The translations under genes were made by a program, and so were the position numbers. A stretch of 64,000 nucleotides of DNA from Deltaproteobacteria bacterium. Its GTDB lineage: Bacteria; Myxococcota; Myxococcia; Myxococcales; Anaeromyxobacteraceae. Shown here one piece after another: positions 31,553 to 36,717 of the stretch. Where the stretch lies: positions 62,001 through 126,000 of the forward strand of contig JACRMN010000013.1 in the NCBI GenBank assembly GCA_016214955.1. The letters run 5' to 3'. Below the pieces are notes generated by a model that saw nothing but the letters and a program-made list of their open reading frames with translations, was not told the origin of the DNA and ran no database searches. Numbering within the stretch: the stretch's first letter is position 1; each line of letters opens with the position of its first letter.

Positions 31553-33310
31553 GTGATCGAACGCACGACAGAGCCCCAGGACGCCGAGTTGCTCGCGCGG
31601 ATGCGCTGGCTCCTGCGGTTGCGCTGGGTGGTGGTGCCGGCCTTCGTGGCGCTGCTGGCCGCCGGCGAGCTGGTGCGGGGCGGGAGCCCCTGGGCCATCC
31701 TGCTCCTGGGCGCGGCGCTCCTCGGGCTCAACGGCCTCTTCGCGCAGGTGCTCTCCCGGCCGAGGCCGCGCCGGACGCTGCTCTGGTGGGCGCGCGCCGA
31801 GGCGGCGGTGGTGGTGGCGGTGCCGGCGCTGGTGACGGCGCTGCAGGGCGATCCGACGAGCGCGGTGCGCTTCGGCGTGGTGGTGGGCGTGGTGGGCGCT
31901 GCCGCGGTGCTGCCGCGGCCCGGCGAGGTGGTGGCGCTGGCCATCTGGGCGGTGGCGGCGCTGGTGGCCGCCGACGCCGCGCCCGCTGGGCTGGCCCGCG
32001 CTGCCGGGGCGCACGGCCAGGCGACCCGCTGGGCCATCGAGGCCGGGGTGATCCTGGCGGTGGCGGCAATCGCCGGGCTGCTGCACCGGGAGCGCGGCAC
32101 CGCCGCGGCGCGGCTGCGGCTGCTCTCCGACGGCGCCGACAGGGCCCGGGTCGAGTGGGAGACCACCTTCGACCAGGTGGGCGAGATGGTGCTCATCACC
32201 GACCTGGACGGCCTGGTGCTGCGCGGCAACCGGGCCTTCGCCAAGGCGGTGGGGCTGCGGCCGCACGAGCTTTCGGGGCGGCGCCTGGCGTCGCTGCTGG
32301 CCGGCCACCCGGATCGCTGGTGGACGGCGCGGAGCGACGGCATCGTCTCCATCGAGGACCCGGTCTTCGACTCCACCTTCGAGGTCACCATCTCTCGCCT
32401 GCCCGACAGGCTGGTGCGCGTGGCCCGCGACGTCGGCGAGCAGCGCCGGCTCTACGCCCGGCTGGTGCAGGCCGACAAGCTGGCGGCGGTGGGCACGCTG
32501 GCCACCGGCCTGGCCCACGAGATCAACAACCCCACCGCCTTCATCGGCTCCAACCTCACCGAGCTGCGCCGCTACCTGGCGGCCTACGAGAGCGCCTTCG
32601 CCGAGCTGGCGGAGGCCGCGCTGGAGGCCGGCGTGGCCGAGCAGGTCACGGCGGTGCTGCACCGCACCGAGGTGGCCTTCGCGCGGCGCGAGGCGGCCTC
32701 GGCCATCTCCGAGAGCCAGCAGGGCATGGAGCGCATCCGCCAGATCGTGGCCAGCCTGCGCTCGGTGGCCCGCCGCGACCAGGCCGGCGAGCCCATGCAG
32801 CCCGTCTCGCTCCCCGAGGTGGTGGACGCCGTCATCCGCACCGCCGCCCACGACCTCAAGGCCGCCAGCGCCCGCATCGACGTGCGCGACCCGGTCCAGG
32901 TGCTGGGCCACCGCGGAGAGCTCGTCGACGTGGTGCTCAACCTGGTGGTCAACGCCATCCAGGCCCGCGACGAGGGGCGGCCCAACCACGTCACCGTCGA
33001 GCTGCGCCGCGAGGGGCTGGCGGCGGTGGTCCGGGTTTCCGACACCGGCAAGGGCATCAGCCCCGGCCACATGCGGCGGCTCTACGAGCCGTTCTTCACC
33101 ACCAAGGGGCCGGGCCAGGGCACCGGCCTCGGCCTCTCCCTGGCCCGCAACGTGGTCGTGGCGCACGGCGGCACCATCGACGTGCAGACCGAGGTGGGGG
33201 TGGGCACCACCGTCACCGTGCGGCTGCCGGCGCTCGAGTTCGAGGCGGCGCAGGCTGAGCCGCCGCCGGCGCGCCCGCCGGACCGGGCCGCCGGGCTCCG
33301 TTCCTACTAG
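31553..33310 (+). CDS. Membrane histidine kinase (N-terminal multi-helix domain, PAS, HisKA, HATPase_c)
   Basis: 585 residues. Residues about 20-178 contain five to six membrane helices without a large loop, so signal detection is in or at the membrane. A PAS domain follows (about 198-298: TTFDQVGEMVLITDLDG), then HisKA with H322 (ATGLAHEINNPTAFIGSN, the NtrB/ATP-dependent N-box-adjacent type), an insertion of alpha helices (about 345-385), and HATPase_c with VVLNLVVNAIQA, VSDTGKGIS and GTGLGLSLARNVV. GTG at 31553 follows a sigma-54-like promoter. Its last six codons (GLRSY, stop) lie within the 55-bp sequence duplicated at 34709. No response regulator is next to it. Confidence 0.92.
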   Translation: MIERTTEPQDAELLARMRWLLRLRWVVVPAFVALLAAGELVRGGSPWAILLLGAALLGLNGLFAQVLSRPRPRRTLLWWARAEAAVVVAVPALVTALQGDPTSAVRFGVVVGVVGAAAVLPRPGEVVALAIWAVAALVAADAAPAGLARAAGAHGQATRWAIEAGVILAVAAIAGLLHRERGTAAARLRLLSDGADRARVEWETTFDQVGEMVLITDLDGLVLRGNRAFAKAVGLRPHELSGRRLASLLAGHPDRWWTARSDGIVSIEDPVFDSTFEVTISRLPDRLVRVARDVGEQRRLYARLVQADKLAAVGTLATGLAHEINNPTAFIGSNLTELRRYLAAYESAFAELAEAALEAGVAEQVTAVLHRTEVAFARREAASAISESQQGMERIRQIVASLRSVARRDQAGEPMQPVSLPEVVDAVIRTAAHDLKAASARIDVRDPVQVLGHRGELVDVVLNLVVNAIQARDEGRPNHVTVELRREGLAAVVRVSDTGKGISPGHMRRLYEPFFTTKGPGQGTGLGLSLARNVVVAHGGTIDVQTEVGVGTTVTVRLPALEFEAAQAEPPPARPPDRAAGLRSY

Positions 33311-33347
33311 CTCGCCCCCTCCTCCCACCAGACCCGCACCTCGTCCA
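33293..33347. repeat. 55-bp direct repeat, left copy (end of kinase gene plus copy of the dinG 3' end)
   Basis: Matches 34709-34763 base for base except one position (A at 33306 against C in the other copy). It contains the last 18 bp of the histidine kinase gene and, on the minus strand, a duplicate of the last twelve codons plus stop of the DinG-type helicase (DEVRVWWEEGAS). The two copies bracket the transposase and its repeats. Confidence 0.9.
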
Positions 33348-33351
33348 TCCC

Positions 33352-33450
33352 CGCGACGCCCCCCCGTCCGAGAGTACCGCGCGGCGACCGCCCGGCTCCG
33401 CCGCGGACGGGTACCGCTCGCCAACCTCGCGGCCTTCCTCGCCCCCACGG
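33352..33450. repeat. 99-bp direct repeat, copy 1
   Basis: Identical to 33471-33569 except C/T at one site (CCCGGCTCC against CCCGGTTCC). Contains CCCGTCCG (33363-33370) and its inverse CGGACGGG about 35 bp on, so the unit can fold. Starts just after the left 55-bp repeat. Function inferred as transposase recognition or REP-like sequence. Confidence 0.85.
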
Positions 33451-33470
33451 GCCCCCCCGTCCGAGAGTAC
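33451..33470. repeat. Partial third copy of the repeat start
   Basis: The 20 bp between the two 99-bp copies repeat only their first portion (ending GTCCGAGAGTAC), so CCCGTCCGAGAGTA occurs three times in 133 bp. Points to stepwise duplication from the left end. Confidence 0.8.
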
Positions 33471-33569
33471 CGCGACGCCCCCCCGTCCGAGAGTACCGCG
33501 CGGCGACCGCCCGGTTCCGCCGCGGACGGGTACCGCTCGCCAACCTCGCGGCCTTCCTCGCCCCCACGG
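33471..33569. repeat. 99-bp direct repeat, copy 2
   Basis: Second copy, period 119 bp from the first. It ends 30 bp before the transposase ATG, so the transposase promoter or a self-binding site may lie within it. Confidence 0.85.
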
Positions 33570-33598
33570 CGGCACGGCGCGTGCCCGTGCCCCCCCCC

Positions 33599-34477
33599 AT
33601 GACCGCCCCGCGCCAGGTTCTCCCCGGAGCCACCTACCTCGTCACGCGCAGATGCACCCAAAGGCAGTTTCTGCTCCGCCCGGGACGCCTGGTCAACGAG
33701 GTCTTCCTTTACCTCCTGGCGCTCGGCGCCAAGCGTTACGGCGTCCGCGTCCACGCCTATTGCGTCCTCTCCAACCACTACCACCTCCTCGTCACCGACC
33801 CCGGAGCTCGCCTCCCCGCGTTCTGCCAGTACCTAGACGGCCTCGTCGCCAGGGCCCTCAACGCGCTCCGCGGGCGCTGGGAGAGCCTCTGGGCTCCCGA
33901 TTCCTACAGCGCCGTCTCCCTCGCCACGCCACAGGACATCATCGACAAGGCCGTCTACGTCCTCGCCAACCCCGTCGCTGCCGGGTTGGTCCGCTCCGGC
34001 CGAGCTTGGCCCGGGCTCTGGTCCGGGCCCGAGCTCGTGGGCACCACCGTCACAGCCGCTCGCCCCACCCACTTCTTCTCCTCCGAGGGCGCGTTGCCCG
34101 AGTCGGTCGCTCTCCATCTGACCGCTCCCCCCGGCTTCGCCTCCGTGAAGGCCTTCCGCGACGCCCTGGCGAACGCGCTCGCGGAGAGGGAGGCCTCCGA
34201 GAGGAGTGGCAGGAGCTTCCTCGGCGTGGCGCGGGTGCTGAAGCAGCGCCCTACCGGCCAGCCGGCGCCCGGCGAGCCGAGGCGGGCGCTCAACCCACGG
34301 GTGGCGGCGCGCGACAAGTGGAAGCGCGTCGAGATGCTAGGAAGGCTCACCGGGTTCCTGGTCGCCTACCGGGAGGCCTGGGAGGCGAGGCGCGCCGGCA
34401 AGCACGGCGTGGCGTTCCCGTTCGGCACCTACCTCCTGCGCGTCCTTCACGGCGTTCCCTGCACGGCCTGCGGGTAG
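33599..34477 (+). CDS. REP-associated tyrosine transposase (Y1/HUH, IS200-like)
   Basis: 292 residues. The Y1_Tnp fold is seen in TYLVTRRCTQRQFLLRP (first strands), the HUH metal motif H60-Y61-H62 in CVLSNHYHLLVTD, and the candidate catalytic tyrosine Y120 in KAVYVLANPVAAGLV, which matches the Y-x3-NP-x2-AGLV segment of RAYTs. Such enzymes cut and rejoin single-stranded DNA at REP hairpins. The C-terminal region is basic and ends LHGVPCTACG. An ATG at 33599 is chosen; a GTG at 33581 lies in a C-run without homology. The frame is intact, so the gene may be active. Codon and G+C bias look like its neighbours, hence an adapted resident rather than a recent import. Confidence 0.88.
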   Translation: MTAPRQVLPGATYLVTRRCTQRQFLLRPGRLVNEVFLYLLALGAKRYGVRVHAYCVLSNHYHLLVTDPGARLPAFCQYLDGLVARALNALRGRWESLWAPDSYSAVSLATPQDIIDKAVYVLANPVAAGLVRSGRAWPGLWSGPELVGTTVTAARPTHFFSSEGALPESVALHLTAPPGFASVKAFRDALANALAEREASERSGRSFLGVARVLKQRPTGQPAPGEPRRALNPRVAARDKWKRVEMLGRLTGFLVAYREAWEARRAGKHGVAFPFGTYLLRVLHGVPCTACG

Positions 34478-34507
34478 CGCGCTCCTCGACCAGCCCGGAG
34501 TCACAGT

Positions 34508-34552
34508 AGCCAGGGCGCAGGCTCAGGCGGAGGTCTGCCTCCGGCTCTGGCT
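34508..34552. terminator. Stem-loop after the transposase gene
   Basis: Nested inverted repeat: AGCCAG (34508-34513) with CTGGCT (34547-34552), and CGGAGG (34528-34533) with CCTCCG (34538-34543) around TCTG. It starts 31 bp after the transposase stop. Could be a terminator without U-tract or a REP-type hairpin recognised by the transposase. Confidence 0.4.
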
Positions 34553-34678
34553 AGCTCGCCTCCCTCCCCGTTCCGAGGACCCCGAGGGGCCTCGCACTCC
34601 GGTGGATCTGCTCGCCGTCGCTCCCGCCGAGGAGTCCGAATGATTGCTCAGGCCGCGGGTACGCGCTGGCACCAGGGC

Positions 34679-34692
34679 TACTCTCGGACGGG
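34679..34692. repeat. Right inverted copy of the element end sequence
   Basis: TACTCTCGGACGGG is the exact reverse complement of the CCCGTCCGAGAGTA found three times at the left side of the element (first at 33363-33376). It lies 16 bp inside the right 55-bp repeat, so both element ends carry the same 14-mer facing inward. Confidence 0.8.
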
Positions 34693-34708
34693 TGTCCCCA
34701 TCCCCAGA

Positions 34709-34763
34709 GGGCTCCGTTCCTCCTAGCTCGCCCCCTCCTCCCACCAGACCCGCACCTCGTCCA
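34709..34763. repeat. 55-bp direct repeat, right copy (functional dinG 3' end plus remnant of kinase 3' end)
   Basis: Right partner of 33293-33347. Bases 34723-34763 are the true 3' end of the DinG-type gene, including its TAG. Bases 34709-34726 still read as the last codons of the kinase (GLRS, stop) although the kinase now ends at 33310. Confidence 0.9.
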
Positions 34764-36717
34764 GGCTCCGATAGAGCGGGGCCGGCGGCAGCGTGGCCAG
34801 GAAGGCGCGGCCGTAGCCGCGGCCGGTGAGGCGAGGGTCCAGCACCGCCACGATGCCGCGGTCGGTGCGGGTGCGGATGAGCCGGCCGAAGCCCTGGCGC
34901 AGTGCCAGCGCCGCCTGGGGCACCGACAGCTCCGAGAAGCCGTCGCGGCCCTCGGCCTCCAGCGCGCGCAGCCGCGCCGCCAGGACCGGGTCGCCGGGCG
35001 GCGCGAAGGGCAGCTTGTCGATGATCACCAGCGAGAGCGCCTCGCCGGGCACGTCCACGCCCTCCCAGAAGCTCTGGGTGGCGAAGAGCACCGAGGGCTC
35101 GCGCCGGAACTCCGCGAGCAGCCGGTGCTTGGGCAGCTCGCCCTGGAGGAGCAGCGGGTAGGGCAGGCCGCTCGAGAGGTCGCGCAGCGCCCGCATCATC
35201 CGCAGGCTGGTGCAGAGCACGAAGGCACGCCCGCCGGTGATGGCACACAGCTCCTCCACGGCGCGGGCCGCGGCGGCGGGAAAAGCGGGCGAGGCCGGCT
35301 CGGGCATCCCGGCCGGCACCACCAGCGCCGCCTGGCGCCGGTAGTCGAACGGGCCGGCGAGCCGCAGCTCGGCCACCTCGCGGCCGGCCAGCCCCACCTG
35401 GTCGCGGAAGTAGCCGAAGCTGCCCTGGGCCGCCAGGGTGGCGCTGGTGAAGACGGCGGTGTCGAGGAAGCCGTAGAGCCGCTCGGCCAGCTCCTCCCCC
35501 ACCTCCACAGGCACCGCCCGCAGGAAGAGGCCGCGGCCGCGGGCCTCGGCGAAATAGACGCGGCTGGGCTCGGCCATGGCGGTCACGGCCTTGAGCTCCA
35601 CCCGCAGCTCGGCGGCGCGGCGGGCGATGGCGAGGAGCGGCGGCGCCTCGGCGTCGGCCAGCATCCCCCGCACCTCCTCCAGCGCCTCGTCGAGGGCCCC
35701 CTGCTCGGCCGAGAGCGGCGCGAGCAGCTCCTCGGAGAGGGCGGCGCGCACGTCGGGCTCGGCGGAAGGGCCGCGGCGCCCGCGCCCGCCGCGCCCCCAG
35801 CCGTCGGCGGGCCTGCCGCGCACCGCCGCCGAGAGCGGCGCGAAGAAGCGCTCGCCGGCGCGGGTGAGCTCGGCGGTGCGGGCCCGGAGCAGCGCCGCCA
35901 GGTCGGGCCGGTCGCCGGCGGCCCGCTCGGCGTCGCGGGCCAGCTCCTCGATGCGCCAGGAGGAGACGGAGAGGCCGAAGTAGTCGCCGGCCACGTCGGC
36001 CAGGGCGTGGGCCTCGTCGAAGATCACCGCCTCGTAGCTGGGCAGCACCTCGACGCCTGCGCGCGAGGTGCGCATGGCCAGGTCGGCGAAGAAGAGGTGG
36101 TGGTTCACCAGCACCAGGTCCGCCTCGGCGGCCCGGGCCCGCGCCTGGGTGACGAAGCACTCGTCGTAGCGCTCGCACTCGCGGCCCAGGCAGGTCTCCC
36201 CGGTGGCCGAGACCTCGCGCCATGCGGCGTACTGGTCGGGCAGGTCCACCTCGGCCCGGTCGCCGGCGGTGGTGCGGCGCGCCCAGGCGAGCAGCGAGGG
36301 CCAGAGCGCCGCCTCCTCGCGGGTGGCGAAGGTGGGGGCGGCGGCGAAGCGCTCCCCGCGCAGCAGGCACCAGTAGTTGGCCCTGCCCTTCAGGTAGGCG
36401 GCCCGCACCTCCACCCCGCAGGCGCCGGCCACGAGCGGCAGGTCGCGGAGCCAGATCTGCTCCTGCAGCGCCTTGGTGGCCGTGGAGAGGATCACCTTCC
36501 GGCCGGAGAGGGCTGCGGGCAGCAGGTAGGCGAGGGTCTTGCCGGTGCCGGTGCCGGCCTCGGCCACCAGGTAGCTGCGGTCGAAGAGGGCCACCGCCAC
36601 CTCGCGCGCCAGCTTGAGCTGGTCCTCGCGGTGCTCGTAGGCCGGGAGCGCGCGGGCCAGCGCGCCGCCGGGACCGAGGATGGCCTCGACCGCTTCCCTG
36701 GGATCGCCCGGGGCCAT
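34723..36717 (-). CDS. DinG/XPD-family ATP-dependent DNA helicase
   Basis: 664-residue superfamily 2 helicase. Q-motif region EHREDQLKLAREVA, Walker A VAEAGTGTGKTLAYLLP, motif Ia ILSTATKALQEQIW, Fe-S cluster cysteines in the insert (YWCLLRG, then ETCLGRECERYDEC), Walker B VIFDEAHALAD (DEAH), TSATLAAQGSF, and C-terminal QSFWEGVDVPGE and RQGFGRLIRTRTD. It unwinds forked DNA, R-loops or quadruplexes 5' to 3'. Fe-S cysteines present: C-x-n-C-x4-C-x4-C. A Gly/Arg-rich stretch ([10 protein letters not shown]) interrupts the arch domain. ATG at 36717 overlaps the stop of the previous gene by one base (TGATG). Its 3' end is the source of the 55-bp repeat. Confidence 0.9.
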   Translation of the reverse strand: MAPGDPREAVEAILGPGGALARALPAYEHREDQLKLAREVAVALFDRSYLVAEAGTGTGKTLAYLLPAALSGRKVILSTATKALQEQIWLRDLPLVAGACGVEVRAAYLKGRANYWCLLRGERFAAAPTFATREEAALWPSLLAWARRTTAGDRAEVDLPDQYAAWREVSATGETCLGRECERYDECFVTQARARAAEADLVLVNHHLFFADLAMRTSRAGVEVLPSYEAVIFDEAHALADVAGDYFGLSVSSWRIEELARDAERAAGDRPDLAALLRARTAELTRAGERFFAPLSAAVRGRPADGWGRGGRGRRGPSAEPDVRAALSEELLAPLSAEQGALDEALEEVRGMLADAEAPPLLAIARRAAELRVELKAVTAMAEPSRVYFAEARGRGLFLRAVPVEVGEELAERLYGFLDTAVFTSATLAAQGSFGYFRDQVGLAGREVAELRLAGPFDYRRQAALVVPAGMPEPASPAFPAAAARAVEELCAITGGRAFVLCTSLRMMRALRDLSSGLPYPLLLQGELPKHRLLAEFRREPSVLFATQSFWEGVDVPGEALSLVIIDKLPFAPPGDPVLAARLRALEAEGRDGFSELSVPQAALALRQGFGRLIRTRTDRGIVAVLDPRLTGRGYGRAFLATLPPAPLYRSLDEVRVWWEEGAS

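Follow-up and report, generated by a model that had tools for sequence, protein, structure and literature searches.

A RAYT-type transposase gene separates the 3′ ends of a sensor histidine kinase gene and a helicase gene in the 64,000-nucleotide stretch analysed here (the window), and on either side of it stands a copy of the same 55 bp (Table 1). This arrangement raises the question of whether the transposase segment was inserted into an ancestral gene junction and, if so, how its flank came to be doubled. The repeat search placed both copies exactly where a preliminary description of the locus had put them, with the single mismatch noted there (A versus C at repeat position 14; 98% identity). 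The copies start 1416 bp apart and enclose 1361 bp, and their longest identical run is 41 nt. At the window element the flank repeat scores 52, while flank pairs swapped between sister elements score 7.9 ± 1.2 with a maximum of 14, so a 55-nt match with one mismatch is not a product of chance.

Table 1. Features of the kinase-helicase junction and of the element within it (window coordinates)
Feature	Position	Strand	Content or basis
Sensor histidine kinase	31553..33310	+	ORF; HATPase_c E 5e-25
Left 55-bp copy	33293..33347	+	Kinase 3′ end and orphan helicase 3′ end; repeat search
Extra bases, left copy to first core	33348..33362	+	Absent beside this junction in relatives
Reiterated 5′ end	33351..33569	+	Three cores CCCGTCCGAGAGTA; repeat search
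RAYT-type HUH transposase	33581..34477	+	ORF; NCBIfam NF047646
3′ end core TACTCTCGGACGGG	34679..34692	-	100% complementary to 5′ core
Extra bases, 3′ core to right copy	34693..34708	+	Sequence and comparison with relatives' junction
Right 55-bp copy	34709..34763	+	Orphan kinase 3′ end and true helicase 3′ end; repeat search
DinG/YoaA-type helicase	34723..36645	-	YoaA model NF053712, 646 bits, cut-off 680; Helicase_C_2

The left copy contains the last 18 bp of the kinase gene, including its TAG stop codon at 33308-33310, and its helicase-end part is conserved in the helicase genes of relatives. The helicase ORF of the window runs on the minus strand and terminates within the right copy, at 34723; its true start lies near 36.7 kb, the open frame extending to 37275. 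Homologs of this helicase were found in 37 of 41 genomes. Named DinG in the preliminary description, it scores best with the model of the DNA repair helicase YoaA, under that model's cut-off, and not with DinG.

Kinase and helicase lie tail to tail with no RAYT gene between them in five relatives for which the retrieved locus takes in the kinase: G002, of the same genus, and G003, G017, G022 and G023, of the same family. The two genes are separated by ∼180 bp of other sequence in G022 and are a few bases apart or overlapping in the other four. In G002 the genes end in overlapping stop codons, CTAG, which is the product expected when 33348-34763 is removed from the window and is what the preliminary description had predicted for the ancestral junction. 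The comparison proposed there also came out in favour of insertion on the point named as telling against it; two tandem copies of the 55 bp occur in none of the relatives examined at this junction. These uninterrupted junctions indicate that the element is a real lineage-specific insertion between the kinase and helicase genes. The proteins of the relatives at the junction are only about 65-80% identical, and the ancestral 55 bp cannot be fixed base by base.

The transposase is at most 298 aa long (GTG start, with an alternative ATG at 33599) and carries NHYH and YVLANP motifs. Its only match among transposase models was the REP tyrosine transposase model NF047646 (REP_Tyr_transpos; E 1.4e-14, 54.3 bits, under the curated cut-off of 80), and the DDE type of enzyme that characterizes IS1549/IS1634 was not found. 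No Pfam profile matched, HTH profiles included, and a sequence comparison with solved structures gave no match. Profile and motif together indicate that the enzyme belongs with the RAYTs. The core CCCGTCCGAGAGTA occurs at 33363, 33456 and 33482, and its reverse complement forms the 3′ end, so that 14-nt terminal inverted arms (33363/33482 versus 34679) are 100% complementary, a layout also seen in sister elements. GTAC or GTAG follows the core. Compared with shuffled sequences, the window ends fold no better (z -0.9 and -1.0), while a sister 3′ end does (z -3.3). The left end carries a second duplication, in which 100 nt (33351-33450 and 33470-33569) are repeated with one mismatch and a short third piece lies between the copies. 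As a side observation, the 8-nt CCATCCCC flanks the element left and right, at the edges of the 55-bp copies (33345-33352 and 34699-34706); it is possibly a short nested duplication or a chance match, and is too short to be given weight.

We also searched for other copies of the element. The source genome (G000; 5.3 Mb in 30 contigs) contains a further two complete RAYT genes, at 69% identity, as well as copies broken at contig ends, among which four 5′ ends are 99-100% alike and five 3′ ends 93-100% alike. This amounts to about 7 further copies, two intact and about five near-identical and broken by the assembly, and most of the broken ones, to the extent that their surroundings are readable, adjoin unrelated gene ends. 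These copies show that the element multiplies as a unit with defined inverted ends. Such RAYT genes were found in 17 of 24 genomes of the family, with up to 16 matches per genome; one scan of genome contigs with the transposase returned no relatives. For L066, L078 and L067, joining the flanks did not reveal clean empty sites in sister strains, owing to differences in the adjacent genes as well. One RAYT insertion (L058/L061) is common to the same-genus genomes G001 and G002, with flanks 92% identical, and is an older, fixed one. Tandem RAYT genes or fragments with repeated end sequences between them were seen at L087, L092 and L103 (in G021, G011 and G009, respectively).

The preliminary description had considered a duplication of this length atypical for such transposases, and about 60 other RAYT loci without a comparable one bear this out. 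When 5′ and 3′ flanks were compared at 63 full-length matches (some loci being represented twice), no comparable repeat was found outside tandem RAYT arrays, and all 20 pairings of 5′ and 3′ flanks from the broken copies of the source genome gave no repeat scoring at least 14. In the 20 elements that have a core at either end, flank scores were 52 for the window, 18 for L047 and 17 for L051, with swapped pairs at 14 or less. The L047 repeat measures 31 nt at about 90% identity, and no empty site was found for it; it may be a second, decayed case of duplication, which we regard as doubtful. A 29-nt flank repeat at L051, L055 and L077 was rejected because it pairs, by chance, the beginning of an epimerase-like gene with the end of a pyruvate:ferredoxin oxidoreductase-like gene, both of them coding sequence (names read from translations). 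Judged by these flank comparisons, the long duplication is an exception among about 60 full-length RAYT loci of the family, with one clear case only.

Reiteration of the element ends, by contrast with this single case, recurs at many junctions, where several copies of a short sequence adjoining the core follow one another outwards, every copy being accompanied by an element-end piece of differing length. At the C22 junction, for instance, the order is GCGACC, GCGACCCC, GCGACCCC, GCGACCCCGTCC, followed by longer pieces and the full end. We compared the 14 nt next to the innermost core, on its outer side, with the 140 nt beyond them and took a score of at least 10 as strong reiteration. By this measure 17 of 79 junctions were strong, the left end of the window element with its repeated 100 nt among them, compared with 0.43 expected from flanks swapped between loci. 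Random window positions, which are mostly coding and not intergenic, reached a score of 10 in 1.7% of cases, equivalent to about 1.4 of 79. A single insertion common to two strains (L065 and L067; flanks 96-98% identical) differs between them in its arrays on both sides and also in its host edges; thus, ends change after or during insertion, with host bases lost and copied. GCGGCGACT is part of the left edge of L065, whereas L067 has it in the right flank alone, a pattern that copying primed by microhomology would produce. L065 also has a 5′ end and a 112-codon fragment of the transposase gene ahead of the full copy.

The preliminary description had left the origin of the 55 bp between a replication-based duplication and a REP-bearing segment brought in by recombination. 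The multicopy occurrence, the inverted ends and the templated-looking reiterations lean towards the former, that is, towards DNA synthesis, by what would be the following chemistry. An element ending in CCCGTCCGAGAGTA and TACTCTCGGACGGG entered the overlapping 3′ ends of kinase and helicase after the split from the sister genome G002. A single-strand cut by the transposase would leave a 3′-OH, and repair synthesis primed by it, with template switching, would duplicate stretches of both the element end and the flank. Such copying would yield reiterated ends at many junctions and, at the window junction, the 55-bp flank copy. There, with no spacer between the genes, the copy would rebuild both gene ends and so be kept; the duplication may have been retained because a copy on each side keeps both stop-overlapping genes intact. 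The divergence of the 55-bp copies (1/55) and of the 100-nt end copies (1/100) is similar, as if they had a joint origin. We give about an even chance to this reading, in which a RAYT/TIRYT-type element inserted via DNA synthesis and the 55 bp are a retained long copy of the flank. Against it, the sole clear long flank duplication in the family may be unrelated to transposition, and, once the element is in place, ordinary slippage of replication at hairpins can also give tandem arrays.

We consider it unlikely that the 55 bp represent a true target-site duplication, made by cutting opposite strands 55 nt apart and filling the gaps in the manner of DDE enzymes with a very long stagger. The geometry fits, since the copies adjoin the element on opposite sides, and long target duplications of variable length, 8-514 bp by copy, have been described for IS1549/IS1634 (PMC2266710). 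However, duplications are recurrent in the account of those elements, whereas about 60 sister loci of the window element lack a comparable one; their DDE transposases are unrelated to the HUH enzyme encoded here; and 15-16 bases between each copy and the core are left unexplained. The term flank duplication suits the 55 bp better than that of a fixed target-site duplication. Also improbable, in our view, is a prior tandem duplication of the 55 bp by slippage or unequal exchange, with the element landing later at the boundary or a segment recombining between the copies. Tandem duplications are common at these junctions and this history would give the same final sequence, but it requires two independent events at one point, its tandem intermediate was seen in no relative examined, and the end duplication and the 55-bp duplication are similarly diverged. 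Because the two copies are not identical, an artefact of the draft assembly is very improbable. The genome does consist of 30 contigs, other element copies break contigs and 55 is a common assembler word length, but a de Bruijn overlap would be identical, whereas these copies differ, share an identical run of 41 nt at most, lie 1.4 kb apart around a divergent, uniquely assembled element and leave both gene ends intact.

The favoured reading, insertion by DNA synthesis, draws on known chemistry, as a 3′-OH made by an HUH enzyme can prime replication or attack the enzyme-DNA bond, both of which are discussed for the spread of REP sequences (PMC8266576). Among known systems, the window element resembles the TIRYT/TIRtron group (PMC3733652; subclass 2.1 of PMC6006769) in its RAYT-like transposase, its NH[YF]H motif and its terminal inverted repeats around the transposase gene, in place of classical REPs. 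As far as the published descriptions allow comparison, it differs in being multicopy and near-identical and in having empty sites, reiterated ends and one 55-bp flank duplication. Subclass 2.1 is described as common in delta-proteobacteria, with a C-terminal HTH as a feature (PMC6006769). Many TIRtron inverted repeats, though not all, carry a GGGGWSAS motif (PMC3733652; PMC6006769), with which we compared, in the window only, GGGGACAC of the right tail, read inwards. RAYT/TnpA-REP REPtrons have in common with the window element the HUH-Y1 enzyme, repeats in inverted pairs and a site between convergent genes, and possibly the GTAG- or GTAC-tagged, hairpin-like nature of the repeats beside the gene. 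REPtrons are, however, described as immobile as a unit and mostly single-copy (PMC6006769), whereas the window element has empty sites and about 7 further copies and multiplies as a unit. IS200/IS605 elements use related single-strand HUH chemistry and move as units, but their transposase is described as shorter, and neither terminal inverted repeats nor larger target duplications are attributed to them (PMC2817692); inverted repeats and a larger duplication are both present here.

The way in which RAYTs disseminate REP sequences is, by one account, poorly understood (PMC8266576). The present lineage combines young, multicopy RAYT elements with clear empty sites and traces of the reaction at the junctions, which makes this question testable in an apparently active system, and the 55-bp case suggests a reason for the survival of some insertions where gene ends overlap. 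Tentatively, and with more doubt than confidence, we propose for RAYT elements of the family a copy-in mode by which they move as units, and in which the HUH-made 3′-OH primes repeatedly restarting synthesis and leaves graded, reiterated ends and occasional long flank duplications. If true, this would be an undescribed mode of transposition and would explain the formation of REP clusters; neither long duplications nor reiterated ends of RAYT elements turned up in a literature search that was itself incomplete. The source genome also has an isolated 37-nt 5′ end (L042; C26:25138-25174), with reiteration of its outer bases and without a neighbouring transposase gene, and its sequence suggests a remnant or a mobilised single end.
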